Assembly: GCF_001591345.1 (NCBI RefSeq)
Contig: NZ_BCUS01000001.1
Coordinates: forward strand, 1 to 64,000
Source of the DNA: Variovorax boronicumulans NBRC 103145
Lineage (GTDB): Bacteria > Pseudomonadota > Gammaproteobacteria > Burkholderiales > Burkholderiaceae_C
Direction of reading: 5' to 3'
Length of the DNA stretch: 64,000 nt
Shown: positions 35,280 through 41,736 of the stretch, piece after piece
How the letters are laid out: each line of letters begins with the position of its first letter
Numbering within the stretch: position 1 is the stretch's first letter
Position numbers and translations under genes: made by a program
The notes under the pieces: model-generated
What the model was told of the DNA's origin: nothing
Seen by the model: only the letters and a program-made list of their open reading frames with translations
The model's database searches: none

Positions 35280-36275
35280 TCAGTTGGGCGCCATGCGCAC
35301 GCCCTTGTCGAGGAACTCGTTGGTGAACAGCGTCGCCGGGTCGTAGGCCTTGTCGATGCCGATCAGCGAGGACACGAGCTCGTAGTCGGCCTTCACGCGC
35401 GCACCGTCGAAGGCGCCGAGCGCCACCTTGGTGGTGGTGTCGTCGCGCATCAGCTGCTTGATGCGATTCCACTGGTCGCGCTGGTTGTCGGGCGTGAGGC
35501 CGCTCACGCTGGCCTGCAGCGCCTGCAGGCAGGGCTCGAAGCTCTTCACGCAGGCGTCGTAGGCGCGCTGGGTCACGGCCACGAACTTCTTCACCTGGCC
35601 GGGGTTCTTCGCGAGATACGGGCCGTTCACGATCAGCGAGTTGCCGTACACGTTCACGCCCGCGTCGCGCCACGGCTGGAAGCCCAGGTCGGCGCCGAAC
35701 TCCCGCACCTTCAGGTCGTGCTCGTTGTAGAAGTCGCTGATGATGTCGACCGACTTGCTCTTCAGCGCCGCCACCTTGGCCTGCGGGCTCACGTTGACGA
35801 AGGTCACGCTGGCCGGGTCGAGCCCCACCTTCTTTGCGAAGGCCGGCCACATGAGGCGCGCGGCGTCGCCCGGCGGGTTGCCGATCTTGCGGCCCGCGAA
35901 ATCTTTCGGCCCGTTGATGCCCGACGACTTGAGCCAGTAGAAGCCCTGCGGGCTGTTGGCGTAGATGACCATCACGGCCTTCACGTCGGCGCCCTTGCCC
36001 TTGGCCTGGATCGTGGTGGGCAGGTCGGAAATGCCCAGGTCGCTGCCGCCGGTGCCCACGCGCTGCGCCGACACGGCCGAGCCCTTGCCGGCCTCGATGT
36101 TCAGGTCGATTCCCGCCTCGGTGTACCAGCCCTTGGCCTTCGCGAAATAGATCGGCGCATGATCGGCCGTGGGTGTCCAGTTGAGCATCAGGCTCATGGC
36201 ATCGGCCGCGAACGCGGCAGGGGCCGAGGCCATGAGCAAGGCGGTGGCGCCGGCGGCCGACAACAGCTTTTTCAT
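35280..36275 (-). CDS. ABC transporter substrate-binding protein, NMT1-like
   Basis: A 331-residue periplasmic receptor. The signal peptide ends AFA|ADAM at about residue 23. MLNWTPTADHAPIYFAKAKG followed by WYTEAG is the NMT1/THI5-like opening. It stands alone on the minus strand, divergent from a TetR gene; the matching permease and ATPase are on the plus strand beyond that regulator. A GTG three codons upstream is an alternative start; the ATG gives a normal signal peptide. A 20-bp operator-like sequence lies in the promoter. The ligand is unknown. Confidence 0.88.
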   Translation of the reverse strand: MKKLLSAAGATALLMASAPAAFAADAMSLMLNWTPTADHAPIYFAKAKGWYTEAGIDLNIEAGKGSAVSAQRVGTGGSDLGISDLPTTIQAKGKGADVKAVMVIYANSPQGFYWLKSSGINGPKDFAGRKIGNPPGDAARLMWPAFAKKVGLDPASVTFVNVSPQAKVAALKSKSVDIISDFYNEHDLKVREFGADLGFQPWRDAGVNVYGNSLIVNGPYLAKNPGQVKKFVAVTQRAYDACVKSFEPCLQALQASVSGLTPDNQRDQWNRIKQLMRDDTTTKVALGAFDGARVKADYELVSSLIGIDKAYDPATLFTNEFLDKGVRMAPN

Positions 36276-36317
36276 GCGGAACACTCCAAAAGAAGGTAAA
36301 AACAGGTCCTGAAATTC

Positions 36318-36346
36318 ATATTACCAACTGTTTGGTTGACAGGCAA
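36318..36346 (-). promoter_or_regulatory. Promoter of the receptor gene with TetR operator in the spacer
   Basis: On the minus strand TTGCCT (36341-36346) and TAATAT (36318-36323) are 17 bases apart and point at the receptor gene. Each matches its consensus at four of six bases. The operator-like sequence fills the spacer, the classical place for a repressor. On the plus strand TTGACA at 36336-36341 could be the -35 of the tetR gene, but its -10 is poor. Confidence 0.55.
36321..36340. promoter_or_regulatory. TetR operator, copy 1
   Basis: TTACCAACTGTTTGGTTGAC. It matches copy 2 at 17 of 20 positions and contains the dyad ACCAA/TTGGT. It lies between the divergent receptor and tetR genes. Confidence 0.65.
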
Positions 36347-36395
36347 TCCAGATCATCCAGACTGCGTTGCCCCTGCCGGGAGAATCAAAAACACC

Positions 36396-39031: not shown

Positions 39032-39868
39032 ATGACCATGCCCGCCGTCGAAGCCTTGTCGTCGATCACGCCCGGCATTGCCCCGATGCTGGACGCGCTG
39101 GTCGCCGCGAGCGGCTGGAACCAGACCGCGCACGACTGGCGGCTGTTCGAGCGGCTCGGCACGGTGCATGGCGTGCGCGACGGCGAGGGCCAGCTCGTCG
39201 CCAGCGGCGCCGTGCTGCCGATGGACGGCGTGGCCTGGATCAGCATGATCCTCGTGATGCCCGCCGCGCGCGGACAAGGCCTGGGCCGCGCGGTGTTCGC
39301 GCGGTGCCTAGAGCAGGTGAAGGCCGCCGGCCTCGTCGCCATGCTCGACGCCACGCCCCAGGGCGAGCCGCTCTATGCGAGCTTCGGCTTCACGCAGCTG
39401 TGGCGGCTCACGCGCTGGCAGCGCGAGGCCGCGCCCGCCACCGCATCGCTCAGCGCCGACAAACCCGCCCTCGACAACCTCGCCGCACTCGACGCGCAGG
39501 CGCTGGGCTTCGCGCGCCCCGCGGTGCTCGCCGACCTGCTCGGGCGCGAGGACAGCCGCTGCGTGCGCAACGGCCTGGGCTTCGGCCTCGTGCGCGCAGG
39601 CCGCACCGCACACCACATCGGACCGCTGCTGTCGTCCGACGAAGCTGTCGCCGCCGCGCTGCTGACGCAGGCCGCACGCGGCATCGACGGCCGCATCTAT
39701 GTCGACGTGCCCGACGACCGCAAGGCCATGACCGCCGCATTGCGCGCCGCCGGCTTTACTCCGCAGCGCAGCTTCGCGCGCATGGCGCTGGCCACGCGCG
39801 ACGGCGCGCAGCCGCCCACCGGACACCCCGCCTTCATCCACGCCATCGCCGGCCCCGAGTTCGCCTGA
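39032..39868 (+). CDS. GNAT-family N-acetyltransferase with C-terminal extension
   Basis: A 278-residue protein. Residues about 20-140 are the GNAT fold with the acetyl-CoA loop VMPAARGQGLGRAVF and YASFGF near the end of the domain. The remaining 140 residues form a second domain with GNAT-like elements (ALGFARPAVLADLL, VYVDVPDD-type strand), as in two-domain acyltransferases. It follows the epimerase-like gene by four bases. It could acetylate an amino group of the imported compound. The substrate is unknown. Confidence 0.82.
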   Translation: MTMPAVEALSSITPGIAPMLDALVAASGWNQTAHDWRLFERLGTVHGVRDGEGQLVASGAVLPMDGVAWISMILVMPAARGQGLGRAVFARCLEQVKAAGLVAMLDATPQGEPLYASFGFTQLWRLTRWQREAAPATASLSADKPALDNLAALDAQALGFARPAVLADLLGREDSRCVRNGLGFGLVRAGRTAHHIGPLLSSDEAVAAALLTQAARGIDGRIYVDVPDDRKAMTAALRAAGFTPQRSFARMALATRDGAQPPTGHPAFIHAIAGPEFA

Positions 39869-39880
39869 GGACCTTCGCCC

Positions 39881-40948
39881 ATGCCATTGAACCGCTCCGA
39901 CCTTCCCGCCGACGTGCTTGCGCTGCTGTCGCAAGGCACCGTCATCCCGGCGCACCCGCTCGCACTCGACGCGCATCGCCAGCTCGACCGCCAGCGCCAG
40001 CGCGCGCTCACGCGCTACTACGTCGATGCCGGCGTGGGCGGCCTCGCGGTGGGCGTGCACACCACGCAGTTCGCGATCCGCGAGCGCGGCCTGTACGCCA
40101 CCGTGCTCGAGGCCGCGATGCAGGACCGCCTGGCCTGGAACGACCGCCCGATGGCGATGATCGCGGGCCTGTGCGGCCCGACCGCGCAGGCGCAGGCCGA
40201 GGCGCGCACCGCCGTCTCTTTGGGGTACCACGCGGGGCTGCTGAGCCTGGCGGCGCTGGCCGGTTCGTCGGAAGACGCGCTCATCGCCCACTGCGAGGCG
40301 GTGGCGCAGGAGATTCCGCTGATCGGCTTCTACCTGCAGACCGTGGTCGGCGGCCCGATCCTGTCGAGCGACTTCTGGCGCCGCTTCGCGCTCATTCCGA
40401 ACGCGCTGGCGATCAAGGTCGCGCCCTTCAACCGCTACCGCAGCATCGACGTGGTGCGCGGGCTGGTCGATGCATGCGCCGAGGAGCGCGTGTTCCTCTA
40501 CACCGGTAACGACGACCACATCGTGCTCGACCTCGCGCTGCCCTTTGCCGCGATGCGCGACGGCGCGCCCGTGCAGGTGCGCTTTCGTGGCGGCCTGCTG
40601 GGCCACTGGTCGGTGTGGACGTCGAGTGCGGTGCACCAGCTGCAGCAGATCAAGGCCGAGCTGGCCGCCAGCGGCGGCGCGCTGAGCCCCACCCTGCTCG
40701 CACTCGATTCGCGCGTGACCGACTGCAACGCCGCCTTCTTCGACGTGGCGAACAACTTCCACGGCTGCATCGCGGGCTGCCACGAGGTGCTGCGGCGCCA
40801 AGGTCTGCTCGAAGGCATCTGGTGCCTCGACCCCGAAGAAGGCCTGGGCCACGGGCAGTCGGCGGAGATCGACCGCGTCTACCGCCAGCACGGCGACCTG
40901 TCCGACGACGCCTTCGTGCGCGACAACCTCGCACGGTGGCTGGCATGA
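39881..40948 (+). CDS. Dihydrodipicolinate synthase-family aldolase/lyase
   Basis: A 355-residue TIM-barrel protein of the DapA/NAL superfamily, longer than true DapA (about 290). The Schiff-base lysine is probably K179 in [15 protein letters not shown]. The first strand [16 protein letters not shown] replaces the DapA GTTGE loop, so it is not a lysine-biosynthesis enzyme. Members with such changes cleave or form 2-keto acids with varied partners. It lies 12 bases after the GNAT gene and overlaps the ATPase gene by four bases. It is the best hint that the imported compound is cut by a retro-aldol step. Confidence 0.8.
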
Positions 40949-41736
40949 GCGCAGTACTCGCGCCCGCACAAGAGGCGCCGCTGATCCGCATGCGGCAGCT
41001 GCGCAAGGTCTACCGCAAGCGCAACGAAGAATTCCTCGCCGTCTCCGACGTCACGATGGACGTGCATGCGGGCGACATGATCTCGCTGGTCGGTCCCTCG
41101 GGCTGCGGCAAGTCGACGCTGCTGAAGATTCTCTCGGGCCTGCACGGCCACGACGGCGGCACGCTCGAGATCGGCGGCCCCGGCGGTGCGGGCTTCAACC
41201 CGGGCCGCGACGTCGGCATGGTGTTCCAGCAGCCGCTGCTGCTGAAGTGGCGCACCATTCTCGAGAACGTGCTGCTGCCCGCCGACATCCTCGGGCTGGA
41301 CCGCAAGGCCGCCAAAGCGCGCGCGCACGAACTGCTCGACATGGTCGGCCTCACGGGCTTCGCCGACAAGCTGCCCTACGAACTCTCGGGCGGCATGCAG
41401 CAGCGCGCCGCGATCGCGCGTGCGCTCATCCACGACCCGAAGCTGGTGCTCATGGACGAGCCCTTCGGCGCGCTCGACGCGCTCACGCGCGAGAAGATGA
41501 ACCTAGAGATGCTGCGCATCTGGGAGCGCAGCCGCAAGACCTTCATCGTGGTCACGCACAGCATCCAGGAGGCGGTGTTCCTGGGCTCGCACTGCGCCGT
41601 GCTCACGGCCGGGCCGGCGCGCATGGCCGACTTCTTCCGCATCGACCTGCCCGAGCCGCGCAAGCTGCACGTGAAGACCAGCCCGGCGTTCGGCGAGTAC
41701 GTGCGCCGCATCTACGACCTGCTGGGCGTGGACTGA
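40945..41736 (+). CDS. ABC transporter ATP-binding protein (NitT/TauT type)
   Basis: A 263-residue ATPase with Walker [11 protein letters not shown]-loop [12 protein letters not shown], signature LSGGMQQR, Walker B LVLMDEP and switch His VTHS. It powers the permease four genes upstream. It is the last gene of the TetR-controlled operon. Having enzymes between permease and ATPase genes strengthens the link between transport and metabolism. Confidence 0.92.

Follow-up and report, generated by a model that had tools for sequence, protein, structure and literature searches.

The first 64,000 nucleotides of contig NZ_BCUS01000001.1 from Variovorax boronicumulans NBRC 103145 (the window; contig C1 of a host assembly of 6.72 Mb in 287 contigs) contain seven genes, at positions 35280-41736, that an initial reading of the letters had described as a TetR-controlled unit for uptake and catabolism (hereafter, the original prediction). 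The families and coordinates given there hold. The receptor, or substrate-binding protein (SBP), of an NMT1/THI5-like ATP-binding cassette (ABC) importer is encoded on the minus strand (35280-36284; Pfam NMT1, E 2.8e-47). It resembles THI5 and ThiY, with sequence matches in the PDB to 4nmy (E 3.1e-21) and THI5 (E 2.6e-17). The remaining genes lie on the plus strand: a TetR-family regulator, distantly RutR-like (36396-37085; TetR_N, E 1.1e-14; TetR_C_29, E 7.5e-41), whose reading frame is open from 36336; the importer permease (37169-37981; BPD_transp_1, E 3.3e-27); Epi, an NAD(P)-binding-type protein with the extended short-chain dehydrogenase/reductase (SDR) fold that lacks the YxxxK lysine (37978-39027; Pfam Epimerase, E 3e-9); a two-domain GNAT acyltransferase-like protein (39032-39868; Acetyltransf_1 in the N half, E 1.8e-9; Acetyltransf_18 in the C half, E 3.4e-18; PDB match to 3ddd, E 6.5e-10); a lyase-like protein of the DapA superfamily, with the class I aldolase fold (39881-40948; Pfam DHDPS, E 3.7e-4, under the gathering score; predicted fold DapA-type); and the importer ATPase (40945-41736; ABC_tran, E 1.6e-31).

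Permease through ATPase is tightly packed. The permease and Epi genes overlap by 4 bases, as do the lyase and ATPase genes; gaps of 4 and 12 bases separate Epi from GNAT and GNAT from the lyase, and 83 bases lie between TetR and permease. The view of permease through ATPase as one transcription-coupled set (importer, SDR-fold protein, two-domain GNAT, and DapA-superfamily protein) is supported. Substrate assignment through family models failed: no NCBIfam equivalog cut-off is reached by the SBP, TetR, permease, GNAT, lyase, or ATPase, and Epi has no NCBIfam model listed at E <= 1e-3. The operon is a real, conserved, uncharacterised catabolic unit built from known protein classes, and its two core enzymes lack hallmarks of their families.

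Gene order and the Epi-lyase pair

A genome scan with the lyase alignment confirmed at least 588 relatives. The best 80 loci were analysed, and these lean to close relatives because they are the best of at least 588. The window's arrangement (SBP on the minus strand; then TetR, permease, Epi, GNAT, lyase, and ATPase on the plus strand) recurs in 35 of the 80. Twenty-two of these are Bradyrhizobium, judged by titles; the remainder include Xenophilus, Eoetvoesiella, Ferrovibrio, Microvirga, Pseudochrobactrum, Fodinicurvata, Rhodoplanes, and Maritimibacter, where an amidase frame separates permease from Epi. The same order is also plasmid-borne, in Tistrella mobilis and Sulfitobacter dubius. Gene order is therefore kept far beyond one strain; the original prediction was to be abandoned if the order proved limited to one strain, and it stands on this point because the order is common to distant bacteria.

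Other loci keep the core with different companions. The order Epi, GNAT, lyase, permease, SBP, ATPase occurs in 7 of the 80, and the importer proteins of these loci share only about 30-50% identity with those of the window. Other neighbours surround Epi-GNAT-lyase in nine loci, Epi-lyase in 12, and lyase-Epi in one; the GNAT is uncalled in one more, and 15 have other layouts. These layouts bear on one alternative, in which the unit disposes of a toxic or antibiotic-like compound: the GNAT would acylate it, Epi and the lyase would dismantle it, and the importer would scavenge. The two-domain GNAT does lie between Epi and lyase in 51 of the 80 loci (35 + 7 + 9), and it adjoins the pair in Aquisphaera, a planctomycete. 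However, the GNAT is dispensable, since Epi stands directly before the lyase with no called GNAT in 13 of the 80 (12 + 1), and an importer under shared control is unexpected in a detoxification unit. Disposal of a toxic compound thus seems improbable.

The pair itself is far more constant. In the genomes of 61 relatives the lyase is listed in 23 at E <= 1e-3, 17 of them at E <= 1e-30; the lyase and Epi (each at E <= 1e-30) occur in the identical 17 genomes, and 44 have neither. Among plasmid records, the lyase is found in 20, Epi in 23, and both in 18. The two lyase-only records are fragments (1170 and 504 bases), and the Epi-only records comprise two from Subdoligranulum and three haloarchaeal plasmids. 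Where a lyase locus has no nearby Epi, Epi is found elsewhere in the genome in four of five cases, one of these as partial matches only. Epi and the lyase are near-obligate partners. Pair-bearing plasmid records extend to Actinomycetota, Bacillota, and Planctomycetota, with different transporters and side enzymes. Together, Epi and the DapA-like protein form a fixed core, with uptake and side enzymes exchangeable.

Distribution is patchy. Across the phylum the lyase is sparse, detected in 8 of 299 evenly drawn Pseudomonadota (E <= 1e-30, at most six candidates scored per genome). The closest named lyase relatives among the best 80 of at least 588 are from Corticibacter, a Variovorax bin, Ottowia, Xenophilus, Ramlibacter, and Eoetvoesiella, which points to a betaproteobacterial host of the Comamonadaceae type. 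The Eoetvoesiella lyase is 82% identical to that of the window, versus 61-67% in some species of the host's own genus, and this suggests transfer between lineages.

The two core enzymes

Residue conservation was read from tblastn matches with at least 80% query coverage and at least 35% identity, without stops and deduplicated: 98 rows for Epi and 113 for the lyase, close relatives included. The AlphaFold2 model of Epi (pLDDT 93.8, pTM 0.93, 53 sequences) is an extended SDR, with the Rossmann fold and SDR topology. The nearest solved fold is TerB (Z 30.8, root-mean-square deviation (rmsd) 2.5 over 291 residues, 21% identity), with several others within about 2 Z; a profile search also finds TerB, at E 1.3e-9. 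Compared with solved chains by sequence alone, Epi gives only a chance-level match (3wxm, E 0.091). Fold ranks offer no resolution of subfamily for either Epi or the lyase, since entries that differ by less than 1 Z count as ties. Named records call Epi an 'NAD(P)-dependent oxidoreductase' or 'NAD-dependent epimerase/dehydratase'.

The hallmark of extended SDRs is a catalytic Tyr-xxx-Lys. In Epi, the residue four after Tyr180 (position 184) is Cys in 94 rows, Val in four, and Lys in none of the 98. Ser153, Tyr158, Tyr180, Lys119, and Arg187 are invariant in all 98 rows, and the glycine-rich loop and Lys52 are nearly so. Might Epi then be a non-enzyme that controls the lyase, either as its NAD(P)-sensing partner or as a scaffold? 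Absence of the YxxxK lysine from every row, along with strict co-occurrence with the lyase, would fit such a role. Yet Ser153, Tyr180, Lys119, Lys52, and the glycine-rich loop are held as in a working active site, and three haloarchaeal records have Epi without a lyase on the record. A purely regulatory or structural Epi is accordingly a doubtful proposition, slightly more so than toxic-compound disposal.

The AlphaFold2 model of the lyase (pLDDT 93.1, pTM 0.92, 60 sequences) is a TIM barrel of the DapA type, as in the superfamily that holds dihydrodipicolinate synthase (DHDPS) and N-acetylneuraminate lyase (NAL). Alignment by VIA-align places it close to 3pb2 (Z 33.1, rmsd 2.3, 295 residues aligned, 16% identity) and human HOGA 3s5o (Z 32.6); its profile gives partial DapA/NAL matches among solved sequences, the best at E 1.9e-7. 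Lys179, present in 113 of 113 rows, aligns with the Schiff-base lysine of DHDPS (Lys161 in the Escherichia coli enzyme, with a K161A entry among the structures listed), and Tyr151, in 110 of 113, aligns with the superfamily tyrosine. Judging by these residues, the lyase's mode of action is probably that of a class I aldolase or dehydratase.

Other positions depart from the superfamily. VHxTQF occurs in all 113 rows (x is T in 88, S in 23, and A in two), and VHxTQ aligns where NAL has GSTGE, so the carboxylate-binding loop of the DHDPS/NAL superfamily, for which GTTGE is an alternative form, is absent. TGNDD is invariant in the 113 rows. The position of DHDPS Arg138, the residue for the carboxylate of the second substrate and one represented by R138H and R138A entries among the listed structures, is Val156 in the lyase (V in 111 rows, A in one, C in one). 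The lyase also scores only 19 bits against a cut-off of 373.95 with the NCBIfam model of KdgD, 5-dehydro-4-deoxyglucarate dehydratase (TIGR03249). Because of the valine at the Arg138 position and VHxTQ at GSTGE, the lyase is not a DHDPS.

An ordinary gene of lysine or sialic-acid metabolism, namely a paralog of DHDPS or NAL that happens to stand beside an unrelated transporter, would nonetheless share the fold and Schiff-base lysine, and would suit the annotation in named records ('dihydrodipicolinate synthase family protein', from PGAP). Val156 in 111 of 113 rows, the altered carboxylate-binding motif, the partnership with Epi, and a Pfam score under the gathering cut-off all speak otherwise, and leave this the least probable of the alternatives, very improbable indeed.

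Control regions, regulator, and flanking genes

Two copies of a predicted operator with the 16-bp consensus TCAACCANNTGGTTGA flank the regulator gene: CCAACTGTTTGGTTGA in the divergent SBP/TetR region (36324-36339; three mismatches) and TCAACTAGTTGGTTGA before the permease (37092-37107; one mismatch). The original prediction placed receptor and operon under the same operator. One motif does serve both control regions, as two copies and not as a single site. A sigma-70-like promoter, TTGACT-17-TATGAT, lies on the plus strand at 37104-37132 (one in 36250-37200, versus a mean of 0.2 in shuffles), and its -35 element starts inside the second operator copy.

The motif is conserved at both positions. 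Including the window, 38 of 40 SBP/TetR regions hold a copy at no more than three mismatches, versus 13 of 2000 shuffled regions, and 37 of 39 TetR/permease gaps hold one at no more than two (24 of the 39 exact). Across 89 related loci (1,664,451 bases), 39 sites lie within one mismatch, versus none in each of ten Markov controls: 28 before the permease, seven before Epi where Epi heads the operon, four between SBP and TetR, and none elsewhere. At two mismatches or fewer the count is 72, versus 0-6 in the controls; all of these motif figures overstate independence, because the consensus came from the very regions counted and close relatives (Bradyrhizobium) make up many of the rows. A -10 element with at least four of six bases and the A and T marks stands in 12 of 35 measurable gaps (34%; 37 gaps have a site), versus 1.7% in shuffles. 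Many Bradyrhizobium gaps instead have TAGGCT at the same 17-base spacing, under that -10 mark.

A predicted palindromic operator beside the regulator gene is typical of autoregulated TetR operons. The conserved 16-bp motif in both control regions argues for the proposed TetR control of the unit, and repression by TetR covering the -35 element would be the natural reading. In the host genome, operator matches with no more than one mismatch occur in three places: 37092 in the window, position 31188 of contig C28, and position 10453 of contig C45. The C28 site (31188-31203; one mismatch) is near a TctC-like receptor frame recognized by eye, and may be chance. A regulon scan of the host genome based on the operator, with the C28 region read, revealed no additional pathway gene.

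Uracil and thymine are the effectors of RutR, the closest NCBIfam model for the window's regulator (TIGR03613, E 2.8e-16). RutR is reported to bind a palindrome of about 16 bp (PMC10891134). The window's regulator is like E. coli RutR in belonging to the TetR family and in its predicted 16-bp palindromic operator. It is unlike RutR and the rut operon in reaching only 60 bits of a cut-off of 368, and in that the window's operon has no rut enzymes.

Convergent with the unit, a molybdenum hydroxylase set occupies 41762-49417 on the minus strand: XdhC/CoxI, CoxG, CoxE, a MoxR-type ATPase, and FAD, molybdenum, and iron-sulphur subunits. The subunits score under the NCBIfam cut-offs for CO dehydrogenase and glyceraldehyde dehydrogenase. 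An XdhC gene adjoins the unit in three relatives also (loci L002, L003, and L004). The set was dropped as a part of the operon because homologs occur in only 9 of the 89 loci.

Regulator and flank together raise the possibility that the unit takes up and breaks down a pyrimidine or another N-heterocycle. The molybdenum hydroxylase would oxidise the ring, and the DapA-like enzyme would come in at a late stage, when the product is open-chain or a cyclic imine. Beyond the RutR-like regulator, its operator of RutR-box length (PMC10891134), and the adjoining hydroxylase genes, this idea draws on the resemblance of the receptor to THI5 and ThiY and on amidases in 10 of the 89 loci. However, the RutR cut-off is far off, the hydroxylase homologs lie in so few of the flanks, the operon has no known pyrimidine-ring enzyme, and the Gfo/Idh/MocA and sugar-type neighbours in other phyla are at odds with it. 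An N-heterocycle is thus unlikely, although it is the strongest of the alternatives.

Further out, a GAF and Fis-type helix-turn-helix regulator frame (49545-50753, plus strand; no AAA domain listed at E <= 1e-3) diverges from the hydroxylase set. The minus-strand stretch 50767-55873 encodes a SnoaL-like protein and an M20 hydrolase, along with, by eye, an M81-type protein and parts of a branched-chain-type ABC importer; it may be a second catabolic unit, for a nitrogen-containing compound. Directly before the seven genes lies a multi-subunit Na+/H+ (Mrp-type) antiporter operon, recognized by eye (29138-35264, plus strand).

A proposed pathway and its known counterparts

The preferred reading is that, under the control of a repressor, the operon's products import a small compound, perhaps sugar-acid-like, modify it, and then dehydrate it or cleave it in an aldol-type reaction; the chances of this reading appear about even. 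Without inducer, TetR would sit on the TCAACCANNTGGTTGA operators, in the receptor/TetR region and at the permease -35 element, and block both transcripts. TetR would be freed by the inducer, which is probably either the substrate or a product formed early on. The NMT1-type importer would bring in the small solute, and Epi would change a hydroxyl or keto group, in either redox state or configuration. Judged by its superfamily residues, the lyase would then form a Schiff base via Lys179 and cleave or dehydrate the Epi product, with release of a 2-oxo acid. Least surely, the GNAT may acylate an amine of the substrate or a side product in some hosts. We infer both the order of import, modification, and cleavage, and pyruvate or another keto acid as product. 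As for the substrate, we think the likeliest kind is polyhydroxylated and sugar-acid-like, amide-bearing in some hosts.

The sugar-acid idea derives from neighbours in other loci and from an overlapping hydroxyacid dehydrogenase gene. Annotated neighbours of the pair include sugar ABC importers, Gfo/Idh/MocA oxidoreductases, xylose-isomerase-like barrels, and an MFS transporter; LacI, ROK, IclR, or AraC regulators; a CoA-transferase with an enoyl-CoA hydratase; and esterases. In each of two Streptomyces records, the lyase gene shares 17 bases with a gene for a D-2-hydroxyacid dehydrogenase, an arrangement consistent with a 2-oxo acid as the lyase product. (The best models for this dehydrogenase in the first record are phosphoglycerate dehydrogenase and glyoxylate reductase, both under cut-offs.)

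Neighbour families were defined by clustering of frames in the 89 loci, with only one or two members of each scanned. Twenty-two loci (L109:8755-10233 and 21 others) hold a diverged family of enolase-like proteins, about 490 residues long and frequently adjacent to an AP_endonuc_2 barrel. The member tested matches Pfam MR_MLE_C at E 1.2e-5, under the cut-off, and has no NCBIfam match. The AP_endonuc_2 barrel itself occurs in 13 of 89 loci, its nearest NCBIfam model being a ketose epimerase (under cut-off); amidase genes occur in 10 of 89, and a Gfo/Idh/MocA protein and a DUF993 protein in 5 of 89 each. Gfo/Idh/MocA and DUF993 genes adjoin in lyase-bearing loci L080, L082, L088, and L103, with DUF993 confirmed in L103 (E 1.5e-185) and L082 (E 8.3e-189). 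No paper naming DUF993 was found in an open-access full-text search, most subscription journals being outside its scope.

Many related operons thus carry an extra enolase-like protein, isomerase, or amidase that is absent from the window's operon. At E <= 1e-15, the enolase-like protein has matches in 28 of the 61 relatives and none in the host genome. The original prediction saw in the seven genes a complete pathway. This claim is not borne out, given the variation in transporter, GNAT, and side enzymes and the extra enzymes encoded elsewhere.

Several observations weigh against the preferred reading. The sugar-type neighbours sit mostly in loci unlike the window's architecture, and pyrimidine-type compounds are more familiar ligands of both NMT1-type importers and RutR-like regulators than sugar acids are. 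Without its YxxxK lysine, Epi may be neither a dehydrogenase nor an epimerase at all; dehydratase and sensor are the other candidate roles. The operator copy at 36324 rests on conservation and not on rarity, because TCAACYANNTGGTTGA at no more than two mismatches matches the host genome in 75 places-by-strand, versus 24 for the reversed pattern. In a mirror-tree analysis of 63 loci, the distances of Epi and the DapA-like protein correlate at 0.86 (reached by 0 of 2000 permutations); the correlations are 0.84 for lyase with GNAT and for Epi with SBP, and 0.70-0.84 overall for GNAT, SBP, and TetR with the lyase or Epi. The mirror-tree result is not counted as support, because the correlation is not specific to the Epi-lyase pair. 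Finally, the three haloarchaeal plasmids (L128, L129, and L130) carry Epi with no lyase match on the same record; the search covered the plasmid records, and an empty result of this kind proves nothing by itself.

The haloarchaeal Epi genes keep company with sulfatases, a heparinase-type protein, CN hydrolases, and an enolase-like protein, and in L129 a fumarylacetoacetate-hydrolase-family gene directly follows Epi. An enzyme of the latter type may replace the lyase in haloarchaea.

With these points considered, the sugar-acid reading is ranked above the pyrimidine reading (which derives from the receptor and regulator classes), if not by much. A broader proposal, somewhat less likely to hold than the sugar-acid reading of the window itself, is that an undescribed catabolic route, spread across several bacterial phyla, has Epi and the VHxTQ-type DapA-like protein as its fixed centre. 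Varied importers and side enzymes would lead to one common intermediate; the lysine-less SDR would prepare it, by chemistry new to SDRs that perhaps involves the invariant Lys119; and a new DapA subfamily would cleave it.

The near-obligate partnership turns two vague annotations into one testable unit, and the operator offers an immediate route to the inducer by reporter assay. Moreover, the missing SDR lysine and the missing DapA carboxylate loop point to chemistry possibly new for both superfamilies. The literature search described above yielded no account of the operon or of the Epi-lyase pair, although one may exist in subscription journals; to this extent it agrees with the original statement that no described pathway has these parts.

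Individual components do have counterparts. Like other NMT1-type ABC importers (ThiXYZ, SsuABC, TauABC, and NtrBCD), the window's importer has a receptor, one permease, and one ATPase of this class; unlike them, it misses all listed NCBIfam equivalog cut-offs. (For SsuA of the aliphatic sulfonate importer, TIGR01728, the receptor scores 64.1 bits against a cut-off of 163.5.) Epi shares the Rossmann fold and the Ser and Tyr positions of extended SDRs such as TerB of the terfestatin pathway and GalE-type epimerases, whereas TerB and the GalE-type 3ehe hold lysine at the YxxxK column. The lyase resembles members of the DapA/NAL superfamily (DHDPS, NAL, HOGA, KdgD, and L-2-keto-3-deoxyarabonate dehydratase) in its TIM barrel, Lys179, and Tyr151, and differs from them in its low identity (15-21%), its length (about 60 residues more than DHDPS), VHxTQ, and the lack of Arg138.

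DapA-superfamily enzymes serve many sugar-acid routes; none that pairs with an SDR of Epi's kind was found in the open-access search. A recent example is GudL, reported as a putative DapA-like 5-KDG aldolase of Enterocloster, with Met110 and Lys194 as residues of its clade (PMC11775122). GudL works with GudD, GarD, and GarR, and the passages covered mention no Epi-type partner (the word 'epimerase' is absent from them), unlike the situation of the window's lyase. By this description, the two are alike in that each would be a DapA-like enzyme recruited to a sugar-acid pathway with an ABC importer (PMC11775122).

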